From contig NZ_JAVALZ010000007.1 in assembly GCF_030730865.1 (NCBI RefSeq), positions 1 to 64,000 of the forward strand: DNA of 64,000 nucleotides, read 5' to 3'. The notes beneath the pieces are model-generated. The model was not told the DNA's origin and made no database searches. It worked only from the letters and a program-made list of their open reading frames with translations. The stretch is from Uliginosibacterium sp. 31-16 (lineage in GTDB: Bacteria; Pseudomonadota; Gammaproteobacteria; Burkholderiales; Rhodocyclaceae). The translations under genes were made by a program, and so were the position numbers. This document shows positions 4,616-63,229 of the stretch, piece by piece (position 1 is the first letter of the stretch; each line of letters opens with the position of its first letter).

Positions 4616-5140
4616 ATGCTCGACCGGGACGGTTATCGCCCCAATGTCGGCATCGTCATCGTCAACTCGAATAACGAGGTTTTTTGGGGCAAGCGCATCC
4701 GCGAACATTCCTGGCAGTTTCCGCAAGGTGGCATCAAGCAGGGTGAATCACCCGAGCAGGCGATGTACCGCGAGCTCTACGAGGAAGTCGGCTTGCGTCC
4801 CGAGCATGTGCGCGTGCTCGCCCGGACCCGTGACTGGTTGCGCTATGACGTGCCCAAACACTGGATCAAGCGCGAATGGCGCAGCACCTATCGTGGTCAG
4901 AAGCAGATCTGGTTCCTGCTGCGTCTGGTTGGGCGCGATACGGATATCAGTCTGCGCGCGAGCGGGCATCCGGAGTTCGACGCCTGGCGCTGGACTGATT
5001 TCTGGGTGCCGCTGGAGTCCGTCATTGAATTCAAACGCGGCGTCTATCGTCTGGCGTTGAACGAACTTGCAGACATGCTGTTTCATGGCGACCTGCAGTC
5101 CCGTCCTCGCGCCTACGCGCTCGATGCGGCGGGGGTGTGA
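4616..5140 (+). CDS. rppH: RNA pyrophosphohydrolase RppH (Nudix)
   Basis: Removes pyrophosphate from the 5' end of triphosphorylated mRNA and so starts RNase E-dependent decay. 174 residues. The Nudix box is complete: [23 protein letters not shown] (about residues 38-60). The N-terminus [16 protein letters not shown] and the [14 protein letters not shown] block are typical of RppH/NudH. The stop codon overlaps the next gene's start by one base, so it likely forms an operon with coq7. Confidence 0.95.
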
Positions 5141-5775
5141 TGATGTCTTTCTCCCTGCTTGATCGCGCGATCCTGAATTTCGACCGAGCATTGCGTACGC
5201 TGGCCGCGCCACCACGTTCCTTACGGCCTGTGCCCGGATGCGATGAGCCGGAAACTGTGCTGTCCGATGCGGAGAGGCGCCATACGGCGGCGCTGATGCG
5301 GATCAACCATGTCGGCGAAATCTGCGCTCAGGCCCTGTATCAGGGACAGGCCATCACGGCGCGAACGAGCCATGCGCGTGTCGCGCTGGAGCAGGCTGCC
5401 AATGAAGAGACCGAGCATCTTGCATGGACGCTGCAGCGTATTCAGGAATTGGGTGGGCGAACCAGCCTGCTCAATCCTTTGTGGTATGCAGGGTCTCTGT
5501 CGATCGGCGTAGCGGCAGGGCTGGCAGGAGATCGCTGGAGCTTGGGGTTCTTGGCAGAAACGGAGCGGCAAGTTGAGGCGCATCTGAGCTTGCATCTTGC
5601 GAAAGTCGCTCCCGAGGACCTTCGCTCCCGCAGCATCCTCAGTCAGATGAAGACGGATGAAACTGTGCATGCCGAAATGGCCGTCAATCTTGGCGGCAGC
5701 GCACTGCCCCCGCCCGTGCGGGGGGCTATGCGCCTCGCCTCGCGTGTAATGACTACGCTGGCTTATCGCGTGTAG
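5140..5775 (+). CDS. coq7: Demethoxyubiquinone hydroxylase Coq7
   Basis: Di-iron monooxygenase for the penultimate hydroxylation of ubiquinone synthesis (2-polyprenyl-3-methyl-6-methoxy-1,4-benzoquinone). The iron-binding carboxylates and histidines are visible: MRINHVGEICAQALYQGQ, NEETEHLAW, ETERQVEAHLSLH and KTDETVHAEMA. A GTG at 5137 and ATGs at 5140 and 5143 are all possible starts; 5140 is chosen, giving a one-base overlap with rppH (TGATG). Ends only 7 bases from the convergent osmC-like gene, with no terminator between. Confidence 0.93.
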   Translation: MMSFSLLDRAILNFDRALRTLAAPPRSLRPVPGCDEPETVLSDAERRHTAALMRINHVGEICAQALYQGQAITARTSHARVALEQAANEETEHLAWTLQRIQELGGRTSLLNPLWYAGSLSIGVAAGLAGDRWSLGFLAETERQVEAHLSLHLAKVAPEDLRSRSILSQMKTDETVHAEMAVNLGGSALPPPVRGAMRLASRVMTTLAYRV

Positions 5776-5782
5776 AAGGTGC

Positions 5783-6208
5783 TCAGGCTGCTGGCGTGCT
5801 CACTATTTCGAAGTCGTGAGTGATCTCGGCCGTCTTGCCCAGCATGATTGATGCGGAGCAGTACTTGTCTGCCGAAAGTTTGATGGCCCGCTCGACGACT
5901 TCGTGTTTCAGGCTCTCGCCGCTGACCACGTAGTGATAGTGGATGCGCGTGAATACCTTCGGATCTGTTTCGGCCCGCTCTGCGCGCAATTGGACCTCGC
6001 AGCCGGTGATCGCATGCCTGCCACGCTTCAGGATCAGCACCACGTCGTATGCGGTGCATCCGCCTGCGCCTGCCAGAATCATTTCCATCGGACGTGGGGC
6101 CTGATCCTTGCCGCCAAGTTCGGCAGCGCCTTCCATGGCGACTTGATGTCCGCTGCCTGTGACGGCGAGAAATCGGGCGTCGCCATCCCATCTGATTTTG
6201 CATTCCAT
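5783..6208 (-). CDS. OsmC family protein
   Basis: 141-residue cytoplasmic protein of the OsmC/Ohr superfamily (YhfA-like branch), whose members reduce organic hydroperoxides or act in stress responses. The two conserved cysteines are present in AGAGGCTAYDVVLIL and DKYCSASIMLGKTAEI. The frame is open for 80 codons upstream, but the ATG at 6208 is preceded by an AGGAGG ribosome site and starts the recognisable family sequence (MECKIRWDGDARF). The precise substrate is unknown. Confidence 0.9.
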   Translation of the reverse strand: MECKIRWDGDARFLAVTGSGHQVAMEGAAELGGKDQAPRPMEMILAGAGGCTAYDVVLILKRGRHAITGCEVQLRAERAETDPKVFTRIHYHYVVSGESLKHEVVERAIKLSADKYCSASIMLGKTAEITHDFEIVSTPAA

Positions 6209-6422
6209 GATCGGGGTCCTCCTGTTTGGGGTGGTGAGTGTAGCGCCTGAACACGAGCCTCTCAAATTTGGCGCAGAGTTCGCGCTGCACTGCAGCGGAG
6301 GGGTGATTTGCGAGGAGGGGGGGGCGAGCAATTGCTCAGGTTCGTGACGGCAAGGCTTTTTGGAAGATAAATAAAACCAATGTTTCAATAGAAACATTCT
6401 CCGTTTGTCAAACAAATAAATC

Positions 6423-6451
6423 TTGCAATGCACCATACGGCTGGTCATAAT
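6423..6451 (+). promoter_or_regulatory. Sigma-70-like promoter for a probable sRNA
   Basis: TTGCAA (6423-6428) and CATAAT (6446-6451) are separated by exactly 17 bases. Transcription would start near 6458 and end at the terminator finishing at 6560. There is no plus-strand coding sequence between them. Confidence 0.55.
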
Positions 6452-6457
6452 CAGACC

Positions 6458-6560
6458 GTGCTGATCGATTTGCCAAGCAAGTCTGGGTCAGAAGTTTGTC
6501 TCCTCCACCCTCCTCCTTTGGTGTGGACTTGGCGCAGCCCCACAAGGGCTGCGTTTTTTT
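6458..6560 (+). ncRNA. Probable small regulatory RNA with anti-Shine-Dalgarno loops
   Basis: A promoter-like pair upstream and a strong terminator downstream delimit a ~100-nt transcript with no open frame of note. GCCAAG (6472-6477) can pair with CTTGGC (6528-6533 region), enclosing a C/U-rich segment. Inside it, CACC (6506-6509) pairs with GGTG (6520-6523), leaving TCCTCC (6511-6516) in a loop; another TCCTCC lies at 6501-6506. Both are complementary to Shine-Dalgarno sequences, as in known anti-SD trans-acting RNAs of other proteobacteria. I do not recognise the family. Transcription is inferred, not shown. Confidence 0.5.
6533..6560 (+). terminator. Intrinsic terminator of the probable sRNA
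   Basis: An 8-bp perfect stem CGCAGCCC / GGGCTGCG with loop CACAA and seven T residues (6554-6560). It lies between the divergent osmC-like and rplM genes, so it cannot serve either of them. Confidence 0.9.
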
Positions 6561-6639
6561 ATTGCAAATCCTCGGTGGTGCGCGAATGAAGCTGGTAGCG
6601 TTTGGCTCGTGAGTGTTTTGCCGAATGTGCTGATCTTGT

Positions 6640-6669
6640 TTGACAGCACTATTTTAAAAGGCATATACT
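6640..6669 (+). promoter_or_regulatory. rplM-rpsI promoter
   Basis: TTGACA (6640-6645, consensus) and TATACT (6664-6669) with an 18-base spacer. The start point would be near 6676, leaving a ~60-nt leader before rplM. Confidence 0.75.
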
Positions 6670-17260: not shown

Positions 17261-17890
17261 TCAGGCGCTTTTCGGTTTGAAAATCTGGTGCCGCATGTCC
17301 TCGCGCTTGGGCAGGGCATCGGCGCGCCAGCGCAGCACGCGCAGGCGGTGCTGGCGCAGCAGGGTTTCGGCGCGGTCGAGCATCGGGTCGGCATGCTGAC
17401 GTTCGATGAAGATCACCACGGCCGGCGTGAAATCCTTTTTGCACAGCACGAAATCTGCCGGCACGCGCGGTGGCGGTGGGGCGTGCGGATCAAGCAACGT
17501 GGCGATATCCACACCGGCCATGACAGGGAAGCCCGGCATGTCGGTCTGCAGCCGCAGGAAAACCTCCTGTGCAGCCGCATCCAGCAAGGGTTTGCGGCGT
17601 CCATGATGAAAATCGTTGGCGGGCGCGGGGGGGCGGTGCGGCGTCTGCAGATCGGCCGCCATCGGGGCTGTGCGAACGGTCTTGTGAGCCGGACGGGGGC
17701 TGCGTGCTTGAGGGAGAGGGGCTGGCGCCGCGGCGGGCTGCTCGATCTCTTCACGCTGGGCCATCAGAAGCGCCAGATGGTCGGCGTCGAACTCGTGGCG
17801 ATTGGCGAAGCGCTCCTGCCACACCCGCCAGGCGCGTAACAGGAAATAGCCCATCACACCGATGATTGCCACCAGGATCAGCCAGCCCAC
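17261..17890 (-). CDS. Membrane-anchored DUF2726-like protein
   Basis: 209 residues. One N-terminal membrane segment (WLILVAIIGVMGYFLLRAW), then a Pro/Ala-rich linker, then a C-terminal domain from about residue 100 (LLDAAAQEVFLRLQTDMPGFPVMAGVDIATLLD...ADFVLCKKDFTPAVVIFIERQ) that resembles DUF2726, a domain with a restriction-endonuclease-like fold. The usual D-E-D/E catalytic set is only partly recognisable (ADFVLC, FIERQ). Function unknown. It is convergent with cysA. Confidence 0.7.
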   Translation of the reverse strand: MGWLILVAIIGVMGYFLLRAWRVWQERFANRHEFDADHLALLMAQREEIEQPAAAPAPLPQARSPRPAHKTVRTAPMAADLQTPHRPPAPANDFHHGRRKPLLDAAAQEVFLRLQTDMPGFPVMAGVDIATLLDPHAPPPPRVPADFVLCKKDFTPAVVIFIERQHADPMLDRAETLLRQHRLRVLRWRADALPKREDMRHQIFKPKSA

Positions 17891-46837: not shown

Positions 46838-47411
46838 CTCTACGTCCTCGACGGTTTAGATGCTTTGCATTAAAGCCCGCTACGGGGCTCAACTCGGAAG
46901 GCGGGTAATATCGTTAAGCAGTCCGTCATGAATGCGGTGTCGCTCTACTCCTAAGCCCCTACCAGTGTCCGCTTTTGGCTTGGCTCAACGACTGTCCGCT
47001 CCTGGCCGAAAGCTTCCAGAACGACAGAACAGCTCCAATCATCCGGCATGCTCCGCAGGGCGTCAATCGCCTGAAAGGCATGGCGCTGGAGGTGGGGCGG
47101 GAAAGGCGCTCCGGCTCGAATTCCCGCAGAGGTTCATCGGCGCTCACGCATGCCCGGCTGCCTCCTGCATCAATCTCGACGGACCTCCCTGATTTGATTC
47201 GCGCCTGCCCCCTTTGATTCACAGGTCTCCGGAGTCGTGGCTTGTTCGGGCCGTGTGGGGGTGTGCGGTGTTCGTGGCGCCCTGACAACCGGTATTGGCC
47301 TTTCGTATGGCGTTGGTCTAAGTTGATGGGGTCCTGTGCTACTTCATGGCAGGTGCTGACACGGTACGCGGCAATCTCGCCGCCAAGCCGGAACCCTCAG
47401 GAGACAAACCA
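46838..47411. other. Gene-free spacer between AlbA_2 and pectinesterase genes
   Basis: 574 bases. It contains a hairpin CCCGCTACGGGG and CCGAG/CTCGG pieces near 46879-46900 and two copies of a TGTCCGCT(T/C)(T/C)TGGC motif (near 46965 and 46990). No open frame has recognisable similarity. The right end must carry the pectinesterase promoter, but no clear pair is seen. Confidence 0.5.
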
Positions 47412-48932
47412 ATGAATCAGAAAATGATGGCGCTCGGGCTGCTTGCCGCCTTGCTGGCGGGCGGTGCGCAGGCGGCCAACCGGCCGGCGGGCTATGTGAC
47501 GATCTGCACCGAGGGCAAAACCTGCTCGGTTGCCAGTGCGACGAATGTCGCCTTCGGCCGTGCCGACAAGTTTTTCTACAAGACGCTTACGGGCAGCTTC
47601 GCGTGCAGCGAAGCGACCTTTGGCGGGCGTATTGCAGGCGGTGTGAATGAATGCTCGGCGGGGTCTTCCTCAGGTAGCTCGTCGAGCTCTTCCTCGTCAT
47701 CCAGCAGCAGTTCATCAAGTTCATCCAGCTCGTCGAGCTCTTCAAGCTCCTCCAGCAGCAGTTCCAGTTCGTCGTCGAGCAGCTCTTCATCGAGTTCGAG
47801 CAGTTCGTCTTCGGGCGGCTGGCCGGCTAGCACAGCGACGCGCCCGCAGCTCTCGGATAGCGTGGCCGCGCAATACGATGTTGCCCAGTTTCTCGCTGCC
47901 AGCGGCACCGTTGGCAGCCTCGTGACGGACAACTGGAACCCGCGCAGCACGGTCATCAACACGCCGGCCACGCCGGATTATCTGGTCGCAAAAAGTGGCG
48001 CCAGCTATTCCAGCGTTCAGGCCGCCATCACCGCCGCGACGCTGGCAGGCAAGACTACGCGGCAGTACATCAAGGTGATGCCCGGCACGTATAACGAACT
48101 GGTGATCGTGCCCAAAGGGCTTCTGGTCACGCTCTACGGCGGGGGCTCCGATCCGAAGGAAACCGTGATTGCGCTTGCCACAGGGGCCAAGCAGACCGGC
48201 GCGCAATTCGCCGCGCTGGCCAATCCGGGCAGTGCCGTCTTCACCAGCAGCACGCCCAGCTCGATCAAGGCCACCTACGATGCCTGTGCCACGAAAAGCG
48301 GCGCGATCGGCACGACCTGCTCGTCGATGTTCGTTGTGAATGCGGATAACTTCGAGGCCATCAACCTGACGATCCAGAACACCTGGAGCGAATCCGTGAA
48401 TGGGGAAACCCAGGCGGTCGCGCTGATGGTGGTAGGCGACCGGGCCTTGTTTTACAAAACCCGCCTGATCGCCAATCAGGACACGCTCTACGTGAAGTCG
48501 ACCGCAGCAAATGTGGTGGCACGCAGCTACTTCGCCAGCAGCTATATCGAGGGCGATACCGATTTCATCTTCGGGCGCGGTACCGCGGTGTTCGACAAGA
48601 GCACGATCTATTTCACCCGTGTGCGCAAGAACAGCAGCACCATCGGCGCGCCCAGCACCTATGGCACGCATCCCTATGGTTTCCTGTTCACCGGCTGCAC
48701 GTTTGCGGTTGATGCGGGCGCGGCAACGGTTTCGCTGGCACGCCAGTGGCCGGAGTCGTCGAGCGCGGGCGTCACCATCGGCAAGATGATCGTGCGCGAA
48801 TCCTACCTGGGCGCGGAGATCAAGAACCCACCCTGGGCCGACTGGAGCAGCAGCAACCCCGTGCAATATGGCACGGCAGCCAGGCCCTATCTGGGCGAAT
48901 ACCACAATACCGGGCCGGGTGCGGCGAAGTAG
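47412..48932 (+). CDS. Secreted pectinesterase with polyserine linker
   Basis: 506 residues. Signal peptide ending AQAAN; a small Cys-containing N-terminal module (YVTICTEGKTCSVASATNVAFGRADKFFYKTLTGSFACSEATFGG) known from secreted pectin-degrading enzymes; a ~50-residue, almost pure serine linker (about residues 84-134); then a CE8 catalytic domain. The latter has QAVALMVVGDRALFYKTRLIANQDTLY, the nucleophile Asp in EGDTDFIFGRGTAVFD, and ARQWP. It demethylates pectin. ATG 47412 follows AGGAGA. No pectate lyase genes are in the window. Confidence 0.93.
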   Translation: MNQKMMALGLLAALLAGGAQAANRPAGYVTICTEGKTCSVASATNVAFGRADKFFYKTLTGSFACSEATFGGRIAGGVNECSAGSSSGSSSSSSSSSSSSSSSSSSSSSSSSSSSSSSSSSSSSSSSSSSSSSSGGWPASTATRPQLSDSVAAQYDVAQFLAASGTVGSLVTDNWNPRSTVINTPATPDYLVAKSGASYSSVQAAITAATLAGKTTRQYIKVMPGTYNELVIVPKGLLVTLYGGGSDPKETVIALATGAKQTGAQFAALANPGSAVFTSSTPSSIKATYDACATKSGAIGTTCSSMFVVNADNFEAINLTIQNTWSESVNGETQAVALMVVGDRALFYKTRLIANQDTLYVKSTAANVVARSYFASSYIEGDTDFIFGRGTAVFDKSTIYFTRVRKNSSTIGAPSTYGTHPYGFLFTGCTFAVDAGAATVSLARQWPESSSAGVTIGKMIVRESYLGAEIKNPPWADWSSSNPVQYGTAARPYLGEYHNTGPGAAK

Positions 48933-58997: not shown

Positions 58998-59147
58998 AGG
59001 GGCAATGGCTTGACGCCTATTTTGTGCGCAGCAACAATGGCCGCGAGGCCTGCATTGTGTGGCGAGGCCTTGTCTGGCCGCAAGTCTGGCGGATCTCACC
59101 AACTGAGTGGGGAGTGCCGGAATGACCAACCCCGGGAGATCTGTTGA

Positions 59148-60890
59148 ATGTTGACACCTGAACAATCGCAGGCTGCAGTCGAAGGCTGGATGCGCGCCAG
59201 TCAGAATTTCATGCAAGGCTTTCTGGGGCATATTGCCCAGACGCAGTCCGCCACTCCTGAAGGGCTTTCTTCCTTTGTCAGTTTGCCGCAGATGCCGGGC
59301 CTGGATAACGAGAAAATGGCCCTGTTGCATCGCGAGCATGCCGAGATGCACGCCCGGCTGTGGGGAACTCTGGCACAACGTCAGCCGGGCGACGCAACCG
59401 AGCCGATCATCGCTCCGCCTGTAGGAGATCGCCGTTTTACTGCTCCGGAATGGACTTCAAGCCCGGTGCATGACTACGTGCGCCAAGCCTATCTGATCAA
59501 TGCCCGGTTTTTGAGCGCGGTGGCGGAAGAGTTGCCCATTACGGATCGTGTAGCCAAGAGTCGTATCCAGTTCATGATGCGTCAATACATTGATGCGCTG
59601 GCGCCATCCAACTTTGCTGCGACCAATCCGGAGGTTGTCCAGAAAGCACTGGAAACCAAAGGAGAAAGTCTGACTCAGGGCTTGTTGAATCTGATTGCTG
59701 ATGTTGAAAAAGGCCGGATTTCGATGACCGATGATTCGGCTTTCGAGGTCGGCGGCAATTTGGCAACAACCGCAGGTGGCGTGGTCTTCGAGAATGAAGT
59801 CATGCAACTGATCCAGTACTCTCCCCTCACCGAGAAAGTCTGTAAACGACCGCTGCTCATCGTGCCGCCTTGTATCAACAAGTATTACATCCTCGATTTG
59901 CAGCCTGAAAATTCGTTTGTTCGTTATGCCGTGGAGCAGGGGATAACGGTCTTTCTGGTGTCATGGCGCAATCCCAAAACCGAGCAAGGGCATCTGGGCT
60001 GGGATGACTATCTTGGCGACGGAGTTCTGCAGGCTTTGCAGCTTGTGCGTGAGATTACCAAGGTTGAAAAACCCAATGTTCTGGGATTCTGCATCGGCGG
60101 AACCCTGTTGGCTTCGGCCCTCGCTGTGGCATATGCACGTGGCGAAGATCCGGTTGAAAGTGTGACGTTCCTCACCGCGCTGCTGGATTTCTCCGAGACG
60201 GGTGATATTTCCTGTTTTGTGGATGAGACCGCCGTTGCTTCAAAGGAAGCCACTGTCGGCAGAGGCGGGTTGATGGCCGGGCGCGAGTTGTCTCAGGTTT
60301 TTTCGAGCTTGCGGCCGAATGACCTGATCTGGAATTACGTGGTTGATAACTATCTGAAAGGCAACAAGCCTCCAGTGTTCGACCTGCTCTACTGGAACTC
60401 TGACAGCACCAATCTGCCAGGGCCTTTTGCTGCGTACTATCTGCGCAATACCTACCTGGAAAATAACCTGCGTGTACCGGGCAAGCTGAATATGCTTGGG
60501 GAATCAATTGATCTTGGCCGGGTTACGGCGTCAGCCTATTTTGTTGCCACAAGGGAAGATCATATCGTGCCGTGGCGAACATCTTTTCTGGGGCGGCGTC
60601 TGATCGGCGGGGAGTCCACCTTTGTTCTGGGGGCCAGTGGGCATATTGCCGGGGTTGTGAATCCTGCGTCAAAAAACAAACGCAGCTACTGGACGAATTC
60701 TCTGCCCAGCGCCACCTCGGATGAGTGGCTGGTCAGTGCTGTGGAGCATCGTGGTAGCTGGTGGCCCAACTGGATTGACTGGCTCAAGGCGAGAAGCGGA
60801 GATCTGATTGCTGCTCGTAGCAAGCTGGGGTCGCGTGAGTACAAAGTGAGCGAACCCGCCCCCGGTCGTTACGTGAAGGAGCGAGCCTGA
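59148..60890 (+). CDS. phaC: Class I poly(3-hydroxyalkanoate) synthase
   Basis: Polymerises 3-hydroxyacyl-CoA to PHA at the granule surface. 580 residues, near the class I length. The lipase-like box has Cys instead of Ser: GFCIGG in VLGFCIGGTLLASALAVAYARGE. The PhaC N-terminal domain includes FTAPEW and HDYVRQAYLINARFL. The catalytic His appears as GASGHIAGVVNP, and Asp as FVATREDHIVPW. First gene of phaC-phbB-phbB, followed by phaR. Confidence 0.96.
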   Translation: MLTPEQSQAAVEGWMRASQNFMQGFLGHIAQTQSATPEGLSSFVSLPQMPGLDNEKMALLHREHAEMHARLWGTLAQRQPGDATEPIIAPPVGDRRFTAPEWTSSPVHDYVRQAYLINARFLSAVAEELPITDRVAKSRIQFMMRQYIDALAPSNFAATNPEVVQKALETKGESLTQGLLNLIADVEKGRISMTDDSAFEVGGNLATTAGGVVFENEVMQLIQYSPLTEKVCKRPLLIVPPCINKYYILDLQPENSFVRYAVEQGITVFLVSWRNPKTEQGHLGWDDYLGDGVLQALQLVREITKVEKPNVLGFCIGGTLLASALAVAYARGEDPVESVTFLTALLDFSETGDISCFVDETAVASKEATVGRGGLMAGRELSQVFSSLRPNDLIWNYVVDNYLKGNKPPVFDLLYWNSDSTNLPGPFAAYYLRNTYLENNLRVPGKLNMLGESIDLGRVTASAYFVATREDHIVPWRTSFLGRRLIGGESTFVLGASGHIAGVVNPASKNKRSYWTNSLPSATSDEWLVSAVEHRGSWWPNWIDWLKARSGDLIAARSKLGSREYKVSEPAPGRYVKERA

Positions 60891-60976
60891 ATTGTGGTGC
60901 AGAGGCCGGCGTCGATTCCCGGAGATACCGGTGCCTTCAAAATATCCGGGGAATTCCCGATGAAGGAGATTTCTGA

Positions 60977-61717
60977 ATGAGTCATGTGGCACTTGTAACA
61001 GGCGGCATGGGTGGATTGGGCGAGGCCATCTGCATCAAGTTGGCAGCTCTCGGCTACAGGGTGGTGACAACCTACTCTCCGTCAAATGGTTCGGCGCAGG
61101 AGTGGCTGACCAAGATGCATCACTTGGGCTACGGATTCATGGGAGTCCCTTGTGATGTGACGGATTTTGATTCCTGCAAGTCGTGTGTATCTCAAGTGGA
61201 GCAGGAGGCGGGACCGGTTGATGTGCTGGTTAACAATGCCGGCATCACTCGCGACATGACTTTCAGAAAAATGACCAAGGCTGACTGGGATGCCGTGCTG
61301 CATACCAATCTTGACTCCATTTTCAATATGACCAAGCAGGTCATGGAAGGAATGACTGCACGCAAGTGGGGGCGCGTGATCAACGTGTCTTCGGTCAATG
61401 GACAGAAAGGCGCTTTTGGCCAGACAAATTACTCGGCGGCCAAGGCTGGAATGCATGGGTTCACCAAGGCCTTGGCGCTTGAGGTGGCAAAGCATGGTGT
61501 GACCGTGAATACGATTTCACCCGGCTATATCGGGACACGGATGGTGACGTCAATTCCCAACGAGATTCTCGAATCAAAAATCCTGCCGCAAATCCCGGTG
61601 AGCCGCTTGGGAAAACCGGAGGAGGTGGCCGGTCTGGTGGCTTATCTTGCGTCGGATGAAGCCGCATTTCTGACAGGCGCGAATATCTCCATTAACGGGG
61701 GGCAACACATGTACTGA
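60977..61717 (+). CDS. phbB: Acetoacetyl-CoA reductase, copy 1
   Basis: NADPH-dependent reductase that makes (R)-3-hydroxybutyryl-CoA for PHB. 246 residues of the short-chain dehydrogenase family: nucleotide motif TGGMGGLG, NNAG, catalytic Ser in NVSSVNGQKGAFGQTN and Tyr/Lys in YSAAKAG, PGYIGT, and C-terminal SINGGQHMY. AAGGAG precedes ATG 60977. Tandem with a second copy. Confidence 0.95.
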   Translation: MSHVALVTGGMGGLGEAICIKLAALGYRVVTTYSPSNGSAQEWLTKMHHLGYGFMGVPCDVTDFDSCKSCVSQVEQEAGPVDVLVNNAGITRDMTFRKMTKADWDAVLHTNLDSIFNMTKQVMEGMTARKWGRVINVSSVNGQKGAFGQTNYSAAKAGMHGFTKALALEVAKHGVTVNTISPGYIGTRMVTSIPNEILESKILPQIPVSRLGKPEEVAGLVAYLASDEAAFLTGANISINGGQHMY

Positions 61718-61720
61718 TGG

Positions 61721-61756
61721 TGTGTCGGCATGCCCGGCTCGCGGGCGTGCCGCACA
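61721..61756 (+). repeat. Intercistronic hairpin between the two phbB copies
   Basis: TGTGTCGGCATGCCCG pairs with CGGGCGTGCCGCACA around GCTCG (one bulge, one G.U-type pair). No T-run, so it may affect mRNA processing or stability rather than terminate. Confidence 0.6.
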
Positions 61757-61818
61757 AAGTGCCTGTCTCGTCTCCCCCGCGAGGCTGGCGTCGAAGTTGC
61801 TCAAGTGAGGTGCTGAAA

Positions 61819-62559
61819 ATGGCTAAAAACGTGGCTTTGGTAACAGGCGGCATGGGTGGTTTGGGCACGGCGATCTGCAAGTCTCTGGCCGATGATGGCT
61901 GGACTGTTGTTGCAAACTGTTTGCCAGATTTTCCTCCGGCAACTGAATGGCTCGCCAAGACCAAGGAAGAGGGCTACAGCTTTTTCATGGCGGAAGCCGA
62001 TGTAACCGATTTCGACCAATGCGCGTCCATGGTCAAGAAAATCGAAGCAGAGATTGGTCAGATAGATGTGCTGATCAATAACGCAGGCATTACTCGTGAT
62101 GCAATGTTCCGCAAAATGGGCAAGGATCAGTGGGACGCCGTGATGTCGACCAACCTTGACTCCGTGTTCAATATTACTCATCCGATCCTGCCGCTGATGG
62201 CTGAGCGCGGATTTGGCCGCGTGGTCAATATTTCATCCGTCAACGGGGTCAAGGGGCAGTTTGGTCAGGCTAATTACTCTGCGGCCAAAGCCGGCATCCT
62301 CGGTATTACCAAAGCGCTGGCGCAGGAGGTTGCCAAGAAAGGCGTGACCGTTAATGCGGTGGCGCCAGGCTATATCGGTACGGATATGGTCATGGCCATC
62401 AAGGAGGAGGTACGGGAGCAGATCATCTCGACCATCCCGGTCGGGCGGCTTGGAACACCCAAGGAGATTGGTGATCTGTGCGCCTATCTGGCTTCTGACA
62501 AGGCAGGCTTCATTACCGGAGCGACCATCAACATCAATGGCGGCCTGCACATGTGCTGA
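61819..62559 (+). CDS. phbB: Acetoacetyl-CoA reductase, copy 2
   Basis: 246 residues, same length and architecture as copy 1 with all catalytic residues (NISSVNGVKGQFGQAN, YSAAKAG). Differences lie mainly around residues 28-60 and the C-terminal helix region. ATG 61819 (MAKNVALVTGGMGG) is chosen over the open upstream frame, which crosses the hairpin. Two phbB copies may differ in expression or in chain-length preference. Confidence 0.95.
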   Translation: MAKNVALVTGGMGGLGTAICKSLADDGWTVVANCLPDFPPATEWLAKTKEEGYSFFMAEADVTDFDQCASMVKKIEAEIGQIDVLINNAGITRDAMFRKMGKDQWDAVMSTNLDSVFNITHPILPLMAERGFGRVVNISSVNGVKGQFGQANYSAAKAGILGITKALAQEVAKKGVTVNAVAPGYIGTDMVMAIKEEVREQIISTIPVGRLGTPKEIGDLCAYLASDKAGFITGATININGGLHMC

Positions 62560-62581
62560 GGAAGTGGTGTGTGTGCCGAAG

Positions 62582-62615
62582 ACAGCCTCGCACATCAATG
62601 CGGGGCTGTTTTTTT
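62582..62615 (+). terminator. Terminator of the phaC-phbB-phbB operon
   Basis: ACAGCCTCGCA / TGCGGGGCTGT stem (near-perfect) with loop CATCAA and seven T residues, 22 bases after the stop. Confidence 0.9.
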
Positions 62616-62621
62616 GCGCGC

Positions 62622-62630
62622 TGCTATAAT
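62622..62630 (+). promoter_or_regulatory. Extended -10 promoter of phaR
   Basis: TGCTATAAT is an extended -10 (TGn-TATAAT) box. It sits right after the operon terminator and 47 bases before phaR; a good -35 is not obvious. PhaR may bind nearby for autoregulation. Confidence 0.6.
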
Positions 62631-62677
62631 CCGACGGCAGCACCAGCCTACATCATAACTATCTGGGGACATGCAAC

Positions 62678-63229
62678 ATGGCCGAAGCAACCCGATTGAT
62701 CAAGAAGTATCCGAATCGCCGTTTGTACGATACGGCCTCCAGTTGTTACATCACACTGGCTGACGTACGCGATCTGGTTCTGGGGCAAGAGGTCTTTCAG
62801 GTGGTTGACGCCAAGACTGGCGATGACATTACCCGCAGCATCCTGTTGCAGATCATTCTGGAGGAAGAGAATGGCGGGGCGCCCATGTTTACCAGTGACC
62901 TGCTGGCGCAGATGATCCGGTTTTACGGTAACGCAATGCAGGGATTCATGGGGCGCTATCTGGAAAACAATATTACGGCATTCAGCGACATGCAGGCCAA
63001 ACTGCAGGAGCAAACCAAAAGCCTGTATGGTGAAAACAGCCCGATGAGCAAGGATATGTGGACCCAGTTCCTGAATTTTCAGGGGCCTGCCATGCAGGGC
63101 ATGATGGGAACCTATATGGAGCAGAGCAAGCGCATGTTTGCCCAGATGCAGGAACAGATCAACAGTCAGACTCGCAGCATGTTTACCGGCTTCCCGTTCC
63201 CGGGGAGTGATGAGGCAGACAAAAAATAG
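62678..63229 (+). CDS. phaR: PHA synthesis regulator PhaR
   Basis: 183 residues. N-terminal DNA-binding domain RLIKKYPNRRLYDTASSCYITLADVRDLVLGQEVFQVVDAKTGDDITRSILLQIILEEE is diagnostic. The C-terminal half has Met/Gln-rich helices (MQGMMGTYMEQSKRMFAQMQEQIN) that bind PHA granules. It represses phasin genes until polymer is present. Confidence 0.95.
   Translation: MAEATRLIKKYPNRRLYDTASSCYITLADVRDLVLGQEVFQVVDAKTGDDITRSILLQIILEEENGGAPMFTSDLLAQMIRFYGNAMQGFMGRYLENNITAFSDMQAKLQEQTKSLYGENSPMSKDMWTQFLNFQGPAMQGMMGTYMEQSKRMFAQMQEQINSQTRSMFTGFPFPGSDEADKK

Follow-up and report, generated by a model that had tools for sequence, protein, structure and literature searches.

The small RNA (sRNA) analysed here has its closest relatives in the Rfam family RF02278, 'Betaproteobacteria toxic sRNA', which reportedly goes back to a study by Kimelman in 2012. 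The loop of MmgR, an sRNA of S. meliloti, is of the anti-Shine–Dalgarno (anti-SD) type. The double-hairpin RNAs of Burkholderia belong to RF02278 (Sass 2015, 2017); they rise in biofilm, under starvation and in glucose medium and are structurally similar to NmsR (PMC5688073). The function of the RF02278 RNAs of Burkholderia and Herbaspirillum is called unknown in the accessible parts of the reports. S17 of Bordetella lies beside coq7, depends on Hfq and is a substrate of RNase E; it pairs with the ribosome-binding site (RBS) of a target, which is thereby repressed. It is under the control of BvgA, and an unnamed repressor has been postulated (PMC11722255). The NmsRs of Neisseria use two anti-SD sites and likewise act by RBS pairing (PMC5362039).

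PhaR is a repressor responsive to granules of PHB, a bioplastic that cells store. In S. meliloti, PhaR (AniA) binds and represses mmgR (PMC12542648, PMC8401924); the PhaR motif is a palindrome with the core YGCRNYGCR and the mmgR promoter is among the sites bound (PMC12542648). For PhbF of H. seropedicae the motif TG[N]TGC[N]3GCAA has been reported together with a footprint (PMC3206438). According to a 2021 review, how PHB synthesis is riboregulated in Cupriavidus necator has yet to be deciphered (PMC8401924). In the openly accessible literature no link of RF02278, S17 or NmsR to PhaR was found, and the main texts examined on these RNAs do not name PhaR.

Here, an RF02278 sRNA from Uliginosibacterium sp. 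31-16 is analysed within a stretch of 64,000 nucleotides (contig NZ_JAVALZ010000007.1; referred to as the window). Judging from sequence, it is probable, with some reserve, that this RNA is repressed by PhaR, blocks RBSs and silences scavenging enzymes in PHB-rich cells. The probable control of the sRNA by PhaR is new as far as the searched literature shows; the RNA family itself is known.

Methods

Genes were assigned with Pfam and promoter-like pairs were located with a consensus scan. For comparison, 30 sRNA loci were fetched which, with the window included, are among the best places of the Rfam model in relatives. Covariation was assessed in an alignment of 40 rows, consisting of the window and 39 rows with the exact sRNA core out of 74 distinct named sequences.

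The operator core TGCRNYGCA was suggested by prior inspection of the 30 sRNA loci. A scoring matrix was trained on 28 phasin-promoter sites; in the phasin set the start at L079, an incomplete locus, was miscalled and was kept. The sRNA test set was drawn from at least 120 core-bearing stretches, 80 of which were listed; L125 and L145 were dropped because their upstream sequence was too short, leaving 78 loci. These were mostly from other genomes, although L095, L163 and L168 apparently correspond to G019, G011 and G006, because they have the same PF07879 places, and G006 and G011 had contributed phasin training loci too. The operator test was also run on 30 NmsR-type loci, with one NmsR-type place per genome.

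Results

The sRNA is flanked by an OsmC gene on the minus strand (start taken at 6208) and by the RplM gene (L13) on the plus strand (from 6736), as the preliminary description had placed them and as Pfam agrees; together with coq7 (5137–5775, Pfam Coq7) and S9, these are its neighbours in the window. The sigma-70-like pair TTGCAA-17-CATAAT that had been claimed was located at 6423–6451 (plus strand) as one of five promoter-like matches in 2 kb (0.8 ± 0.8 in shuffles), and rplM has a promoter-like pair of its own at 6640–6669. Transcription would start at about 6458. At least one of Coq7, OsmC, RplM and RpsI is present in 28 of the 30 fetched loci and in 76 of the 80 named stretches listed. 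Rhodocyclaceae, Burkholderiaceae, Alcaligenaceae and others are represented among the named stretches with the core, and two stretches from Bordetella, L115 and L128, have both the exact core and coq7.

A covariance-model search, which the preliminary description had named as a check, matched RF02278 over its full length to 6497–6562 (plus strand) at 54.1 bits, above the curated gathering cut-off of 50 bits, so the family of this RNA is already known. Both traits of RF02278, two hairpins and two CU-rich anti-SD stretches, are present. The preliminary description had not recognized the RNA; its described relatives are the RF02278 family, S17 of Bordetella and, by similarity, NmsR of Neisseria. 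The assignment to the family and to the coq7–osmC–rplM locus is nearly certain. The genome contains one RF02278 match, and 48 of 61 genomes (this one and 60 relatives) have matches at E ≤ 0.001, 34 of them above the cut-off. One to three matches per genome are usual; nine were found in G043 and eight in G013. The 20-nt core TGTCTCCTCCACCCTCCTCC, with both motifs in it, is identical in 26 of the 30 fetched loci (window counted) and differs in L018, L021, L023 and L025; the sequences of the leader and of the terminator stem vary across the 30 loci. The family match, its presence in 48 of 61 genomes and the exact core in 26 of 30 loci make the element more than a chance occurrence.

The two TCCTCC motifs sit at 6501–6506 and 6511–6516, and the proposal of an sRNA with two anti-SD motifs is borne out by the family match and by conservation. 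Loss of the motifs in relatives, named beforehand as evidence against the proposal, was absent, both motifs being nearly invariant. The first belongs to anti-SD site 1 (UGUCUCCUCC, 6497–6506, plus strand), which is mostly single-stranded; this motif comprises single strand and stem base. The second lies in a predicted loop, as had been stated for one of them: the loop of stem-loop 2 (6504–6527, plus strand) holds anti-SD site 2 (CUCCUCC). The invariance of site 1 in the 40-row alignment follows from the selection of 39 rows by the exact core, and the six counted pairs of stem-loop 2 never vary in this alignment, so that covariation is uninformative either way for this stem.

An intrinsic terminator was found where a strong one had been claimed (6531–6562, plus strand), with a hairpin at 6531–6555 (ten pairs, seven GC, loop of five) followed by a T run; terminator-like matches as a class are not enriched over shuffles in the 2-kb scan (2 versus 2.4). 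Its helix covaries, with eight of ten pairs changed on both sides in the 40-row alignment, and covariation over the whole structure amounts to 105 cells versus 36.3 in shuffles (score 0.398 versus 0.152).

The preliminary description had further proposed a structured segment and an sRNA of about 6458–6560 as a unit. The predicted fold of RNA 6458–6560 (−40.4 kcal/mol, z = −3.28) was equalled or bettered by one of 200 shuffles, and in beating the other 199 it supports the structured segment, but the leader stem at 6461–6491 is conserved in neither sequence nor length across the 30 loci, and the conserved unit is 6497–6562 instead. The 5′ leader (6458–6496, plus strand), which differs between species in both respects, contains stem-loop 1 (fold −13.4 kcal/mol); the NmsRb model aligns here with its own stem-loop 1. 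The 66-nt unit 6497–6562 is possibly a processed form, like S17S of Bordetella.

A feature that the preliminary description missed is a PhaR-type operator in the sRNA promoter. It spans 6419–6437, with its core TGCAATGCA at 6424–6432, overlaps the −35 element and scores 18.2 with the matrix, which makes it the second-best match in the 64 kb window. The best is at 59020–59038 (score 18.7), about 110 nt before phaC. A third-ranked match lies at 17435–17453 (score 13.9). The region 59148–63229 is a PHB cluster comprising phaC, encoding PHB synthase (59148–60890, plus strand; PhaC_N 7e-68), two phaB-like reductase genes (by sequence) and phaR, encoding the proposed sRNA repressor (62678–63229, plus strand; PHB_acc_N 5.8e-30, PHB_acc 1.1e-35). 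Both marks of a PhaR regulon member are thus found at the sRNA: an operator-like site in the promoter and a PhaR gene in the genome.

The operator core of the window agrees with YGCRNYGCR of S. meliloti (PMC12542648) and is close to the PhbF motif (PMC3206438), as far as these motifs are given in the accessible texts. Across the 30 loci a TGC-N3-GCA element is present upstream of most sRNA copies, and GCN3GCACAA, on either strand, occurs within 200 nt upstream in 21 (4.17 per kb versus 0.07 elsewhere in the same loci). Of 30 phasin genes taken from 16 of the same genomes, 17 are preceded by TGCRNYGCA (2.76 per kb versus 0.27). The published PhbF pattern TTGCN3GCANCA was found upstream of six of the 30 loci and in the opposite orientation upstream of none, and the literal pattern has 148 matches in the genome versus 12 for the reversed pattern; being both too strict and too unspecific, it was replaced by the trained matrix. 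TTGYNNNGCACMA has 68 matches in the genome versus 16, the sRNA promoter and the site upstream of phaC included, and scanning the window for the consensus with one mismatch allowed gave no more than chance (16 matches versus 19.5 in shuffles). Among the scans of the window, only the matrix puts both sites on top.

Trained on phasin promoters, the matrix placed 68 of the 78 listed named sRNA loci above the 99th percentile and 73 above the 95th percentile of 2760 control windows, which lay for the most part in coding sequence and had a higher GC content (median 0.62 versus 0.43); against low-GC controls only, 65 and 73 of the 78 passed, respectively. Of the 78 loci, column-permuted matrices (100 in all) recovered 2.68 on average and never more than 32. 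L099 (−26) passed by a small margin only, as did two loci from Ralstonia, L156 and L165 (−39); the sites of these three perhaps lie inside the leader of the RNA itself. In L136, L144 and L146 the best operator match is only 38–39 nt before the core, so that a transcript would begin almost at the core, without the leader stem. Ten of the 78 listed loci failed at the 99th percentile and five at the 95th, although their genomes encode PhaR; the ten comprise two from Burkholderia, two from Paraburkholderia MAGs, two from Cupriavidus and four from other MAGs.

PHB_acc_N was found in all 80 listed exact-core genomes. Among the 61 genomes, RF02278 is present in 45 of the 52 with PhaR versus three of the nine without (Fisher p 0.0018, kinship ignored). 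RF02278 is present and PhaR absent by profile search in G045 and G050. In G018 (L017), whose genome is 96% complete, the sRNA comes with a GCN3GCACAA site but PHB_acc_N gave no match, for which either a missing contig or a lost regulator would account.

These data have to be weighed against the possibility of an ordinary RF02278 sRNA without a link to PHB, in which the operator-like sequence results incidentally from the conservation of a TTGC-type −35 region or is the site of another regulator. The site does overlap the −35 element TTGCAA in the window, the ten loci without a good site and the three PhaR-less genomes that keep RF02278 fit this explanation, and the published regulators of the relatives are BvgA and RelA rather than PHB. 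In several loci (e.g. L003, L007 and L012), however, the site precedes the apparent −35 element instead of overlapping it; the matrix that recovers most sRNA loci was trained on phasins, holds up against low-GC controls and fails when permuted; and the PhaR motifs of both S. meliloti and H. seropedicae match (PMC12542648, PMC3206438). An sRNA without a PHB link is therefore considered unlikely, and the operator is in all likelihood of the PhaR type.

NmsR-type loci provide a contrast. Within the order, RF02877 matches (E ≤ 0.001) are present in 56 of 399 genomes. When 20 loci were scanned with both models, the matches of RF02877 and RF02278 coincided in 16, three of these at the second tandem copy; RF02278 always remains below its own cut-off at NmsR-type places. 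Such shared places include L218, L018 and NmsR-type loci. At L218 RF00519 matches the same place too (32.8 bits), and from such shared places the three families look related. Rfam has no clan for RF02278 and RF02877, and since the same places match a shared clan may be due. In f44, which has tandem copies and is presumably Neisseria, the operator exceeds the 99th percentile in none of nine loci, with L217 passing the 95th, and PhaR is present in none of the nine genomes. PhaR was found in 21 of 21 genomes of f27, f32 and f51; the operator is present in four of four loci in f32 (PhaR likewise four of four), in four of 12 NmsR-type loci in f27, at an unusual distance, and in none of five in f51 once a match inside the RNA's own stem at L237 is excluded.

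Candidate targets were sought as AGGAGACA-N0–9-ATG, the complement of UGUCUCCU in site 1. The genome has 27 such sites, compared with five for the reversed pattern, and 13 of the 27 genes belong to pectin breakdown (Pfam, with GH43 counted by inference): several pectate lyase families, rhamnogalacturonan lyase, pectinesterase and GH43. The other genes include those for CstA, glutamate dehydrogenase, a solute-binding protein and an elongation-factor-G-like protein, and two gave no Pfam match; the CstA start site carries the full ten-base complement GGAGGAGACA. In the window, the candidate site at 47399–47406 (plus strand; pattern match G000:C7:47399) precedes a pectinesterase gene at 47412–48929 (plus strand; Pectinesterase 2.2e-28), the product of which is probably secreted, judging from its signal-like N-terminus. 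Its N-terminal module (ANRPxGYxTICTEGKTC) is common to several otherwise different pectin enzymes of the genome.

Ten such sites occur in an 864-kb sample made up of the window and 40 stretches, seven of them in front of genes for pectin enzymes. A homology search with the 13 pectin genes found 12 ORFs in the sample, namely those seven and five more, two of which have near forms; the remaining three sites fall among about 711 other ORFs (crude count), which gives p 5e-12, a value that is too good, just as seven of 12 is inflated, because the queries were chosen by their RBS and themselves account for seven of the 12 ORFs, and because relatedness was ignored. As the N-terminal module is shared by ten of the 13 pectin genes and absent from three, the RBS may be partly inherited, and inheritance would cover part of the pattern, perhaps not all of it. 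Among the extensions of AGGAG found in the sample, ACA does not stand out (10/232, tied with CCG; 2/134 and rank 22 in the first half-sample). The pectin enzymes are plausible as a target set, with the balance somewhat in their favour.

A general anti-SD inhibitor would instead bind very many RBSs and slow growth, with no special target set. Both sites match a generic SD, and, according to the accessible texts, RF02278 RNAs inhibit the growth of E. coli (PMC4603805) and NmsRs harm it (PMC5362039). For S17, on the other hand, toxicity in E. coli is not clear, and its targets form a limited set, one of them verified by compensatory mutations (PMC11722255); site 1 here extends 3 nt past the SD complement, and seven of the ten genes with the extended site in the sample encode pectin enzymes. 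General inhibition is thus regarded as quite improbable, slightly more so than a family member without a PHB link.

Two further explanations concern the nature of the transcript. The RNA points toward RplM wherever RplM was found, as a terminated leader or attenuator of the ribosomal protein operon would; such a cis element is argued against by the sRNA's own terminator, which ends about 78 nt before the separate rplM promoter-like pair, and in Bordetella L115 and L128 the sRNA follows coq7 with no RplM in the 1.3 to 2.0 kb of downstream sequence covered, which leaves this reading very little probability. Least probable of all is a small protein gene: a GTG frame of 43 codons is open from 6458, and S17L has been noted with a 32-residue frame, but the frame here reads through the terminator, which covaries as RNA, and no frame is consistently both opened and closed around the core in the 78 listed loci (crude count).

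Discussion

With PhaR as the repressor, the system would operate as follows. Free PhaR would repress the sRNA promoter; as PHB granules form, PhaR would be sequestered and the sRNA made as a transcript of about 6458–6560, which may then be trimmed to 6497–6562. Its two CU-rich sites would pair, presumably with the help of Hfq, with the RBSs of particular mRNAs and keep these from being translated, in this organism silencing pectin-degrading enzymes and other carbon-scavenging genes (CstA, solute-binding protein), so that a full carbon store would stop foraging. If this is true, an RNA would form a direct link by which PHB storage turns foraging off. RF02278 RNAs are widespread in the searched genomes, and the conserved PhaR-type operator identifies a candidate for their regulator and gives them a physiological meaning; the proposal also bears on bioplastic-producing strains.

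More tentatively, and with somewhat less than even confidence, PhaR-controlled anti-SD sRNAs may be one old alphaproteobacterial and betaproteobacterial module, with MmgR, RF02278/S17 and NmsR as one superfamily, in which the store signals satiety and scavenging is silenced (here pectinases). Neisseria would have lost PHB and PhaR and kept the RNA under new control.

Compared with the described systems, the RNA resembles RF02278 in sequence, in its two hairpins and two CU-rich sites and in the terminator. It differs in an extra 5′ stem and in its single match, compared with four each in B. cenocepacia and H. seropedicae in the accessible reports. With S17 of B. pertussis it shares the core (27 nt are reported as 100% conserved; PMC11722255) and the position next to coq7, and the −35 element of S17, TTGCAT, fits the operator (PMC11722255); S17 differs in its 190-nt precursor and its dependence on BvgA (PMC11722255). 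Exact core and coq7 neighbourhood, the marks of an S17 orthologue, are both found here, and the sRNA is probably an orthologue of Bordetella S17. The order of stem-loop 1, anti-SD site 1, stem-loop 2 with anti-SD site 2 and terminator is that of NmsR/NgncR (RF02877), but the Neisseria RNAs occur as tandem copies under RelA control, with PhaR in none of the nine f44 genomes. Membership of RF02877 was rejected, as the end-to-end alignment scored 36.7 bits, below the cut-off of 52. MmgR (RF00519) was likewise rejected as a family (19.6 versus 41 bits), the similarity being one of working only: MmgR is an Hfq-dependent sRNA tied to PHB, according to the accessible sources, and has a PhaR operator in its promoter, as the present sRNA appears to have. 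A common descent of the two is possible.
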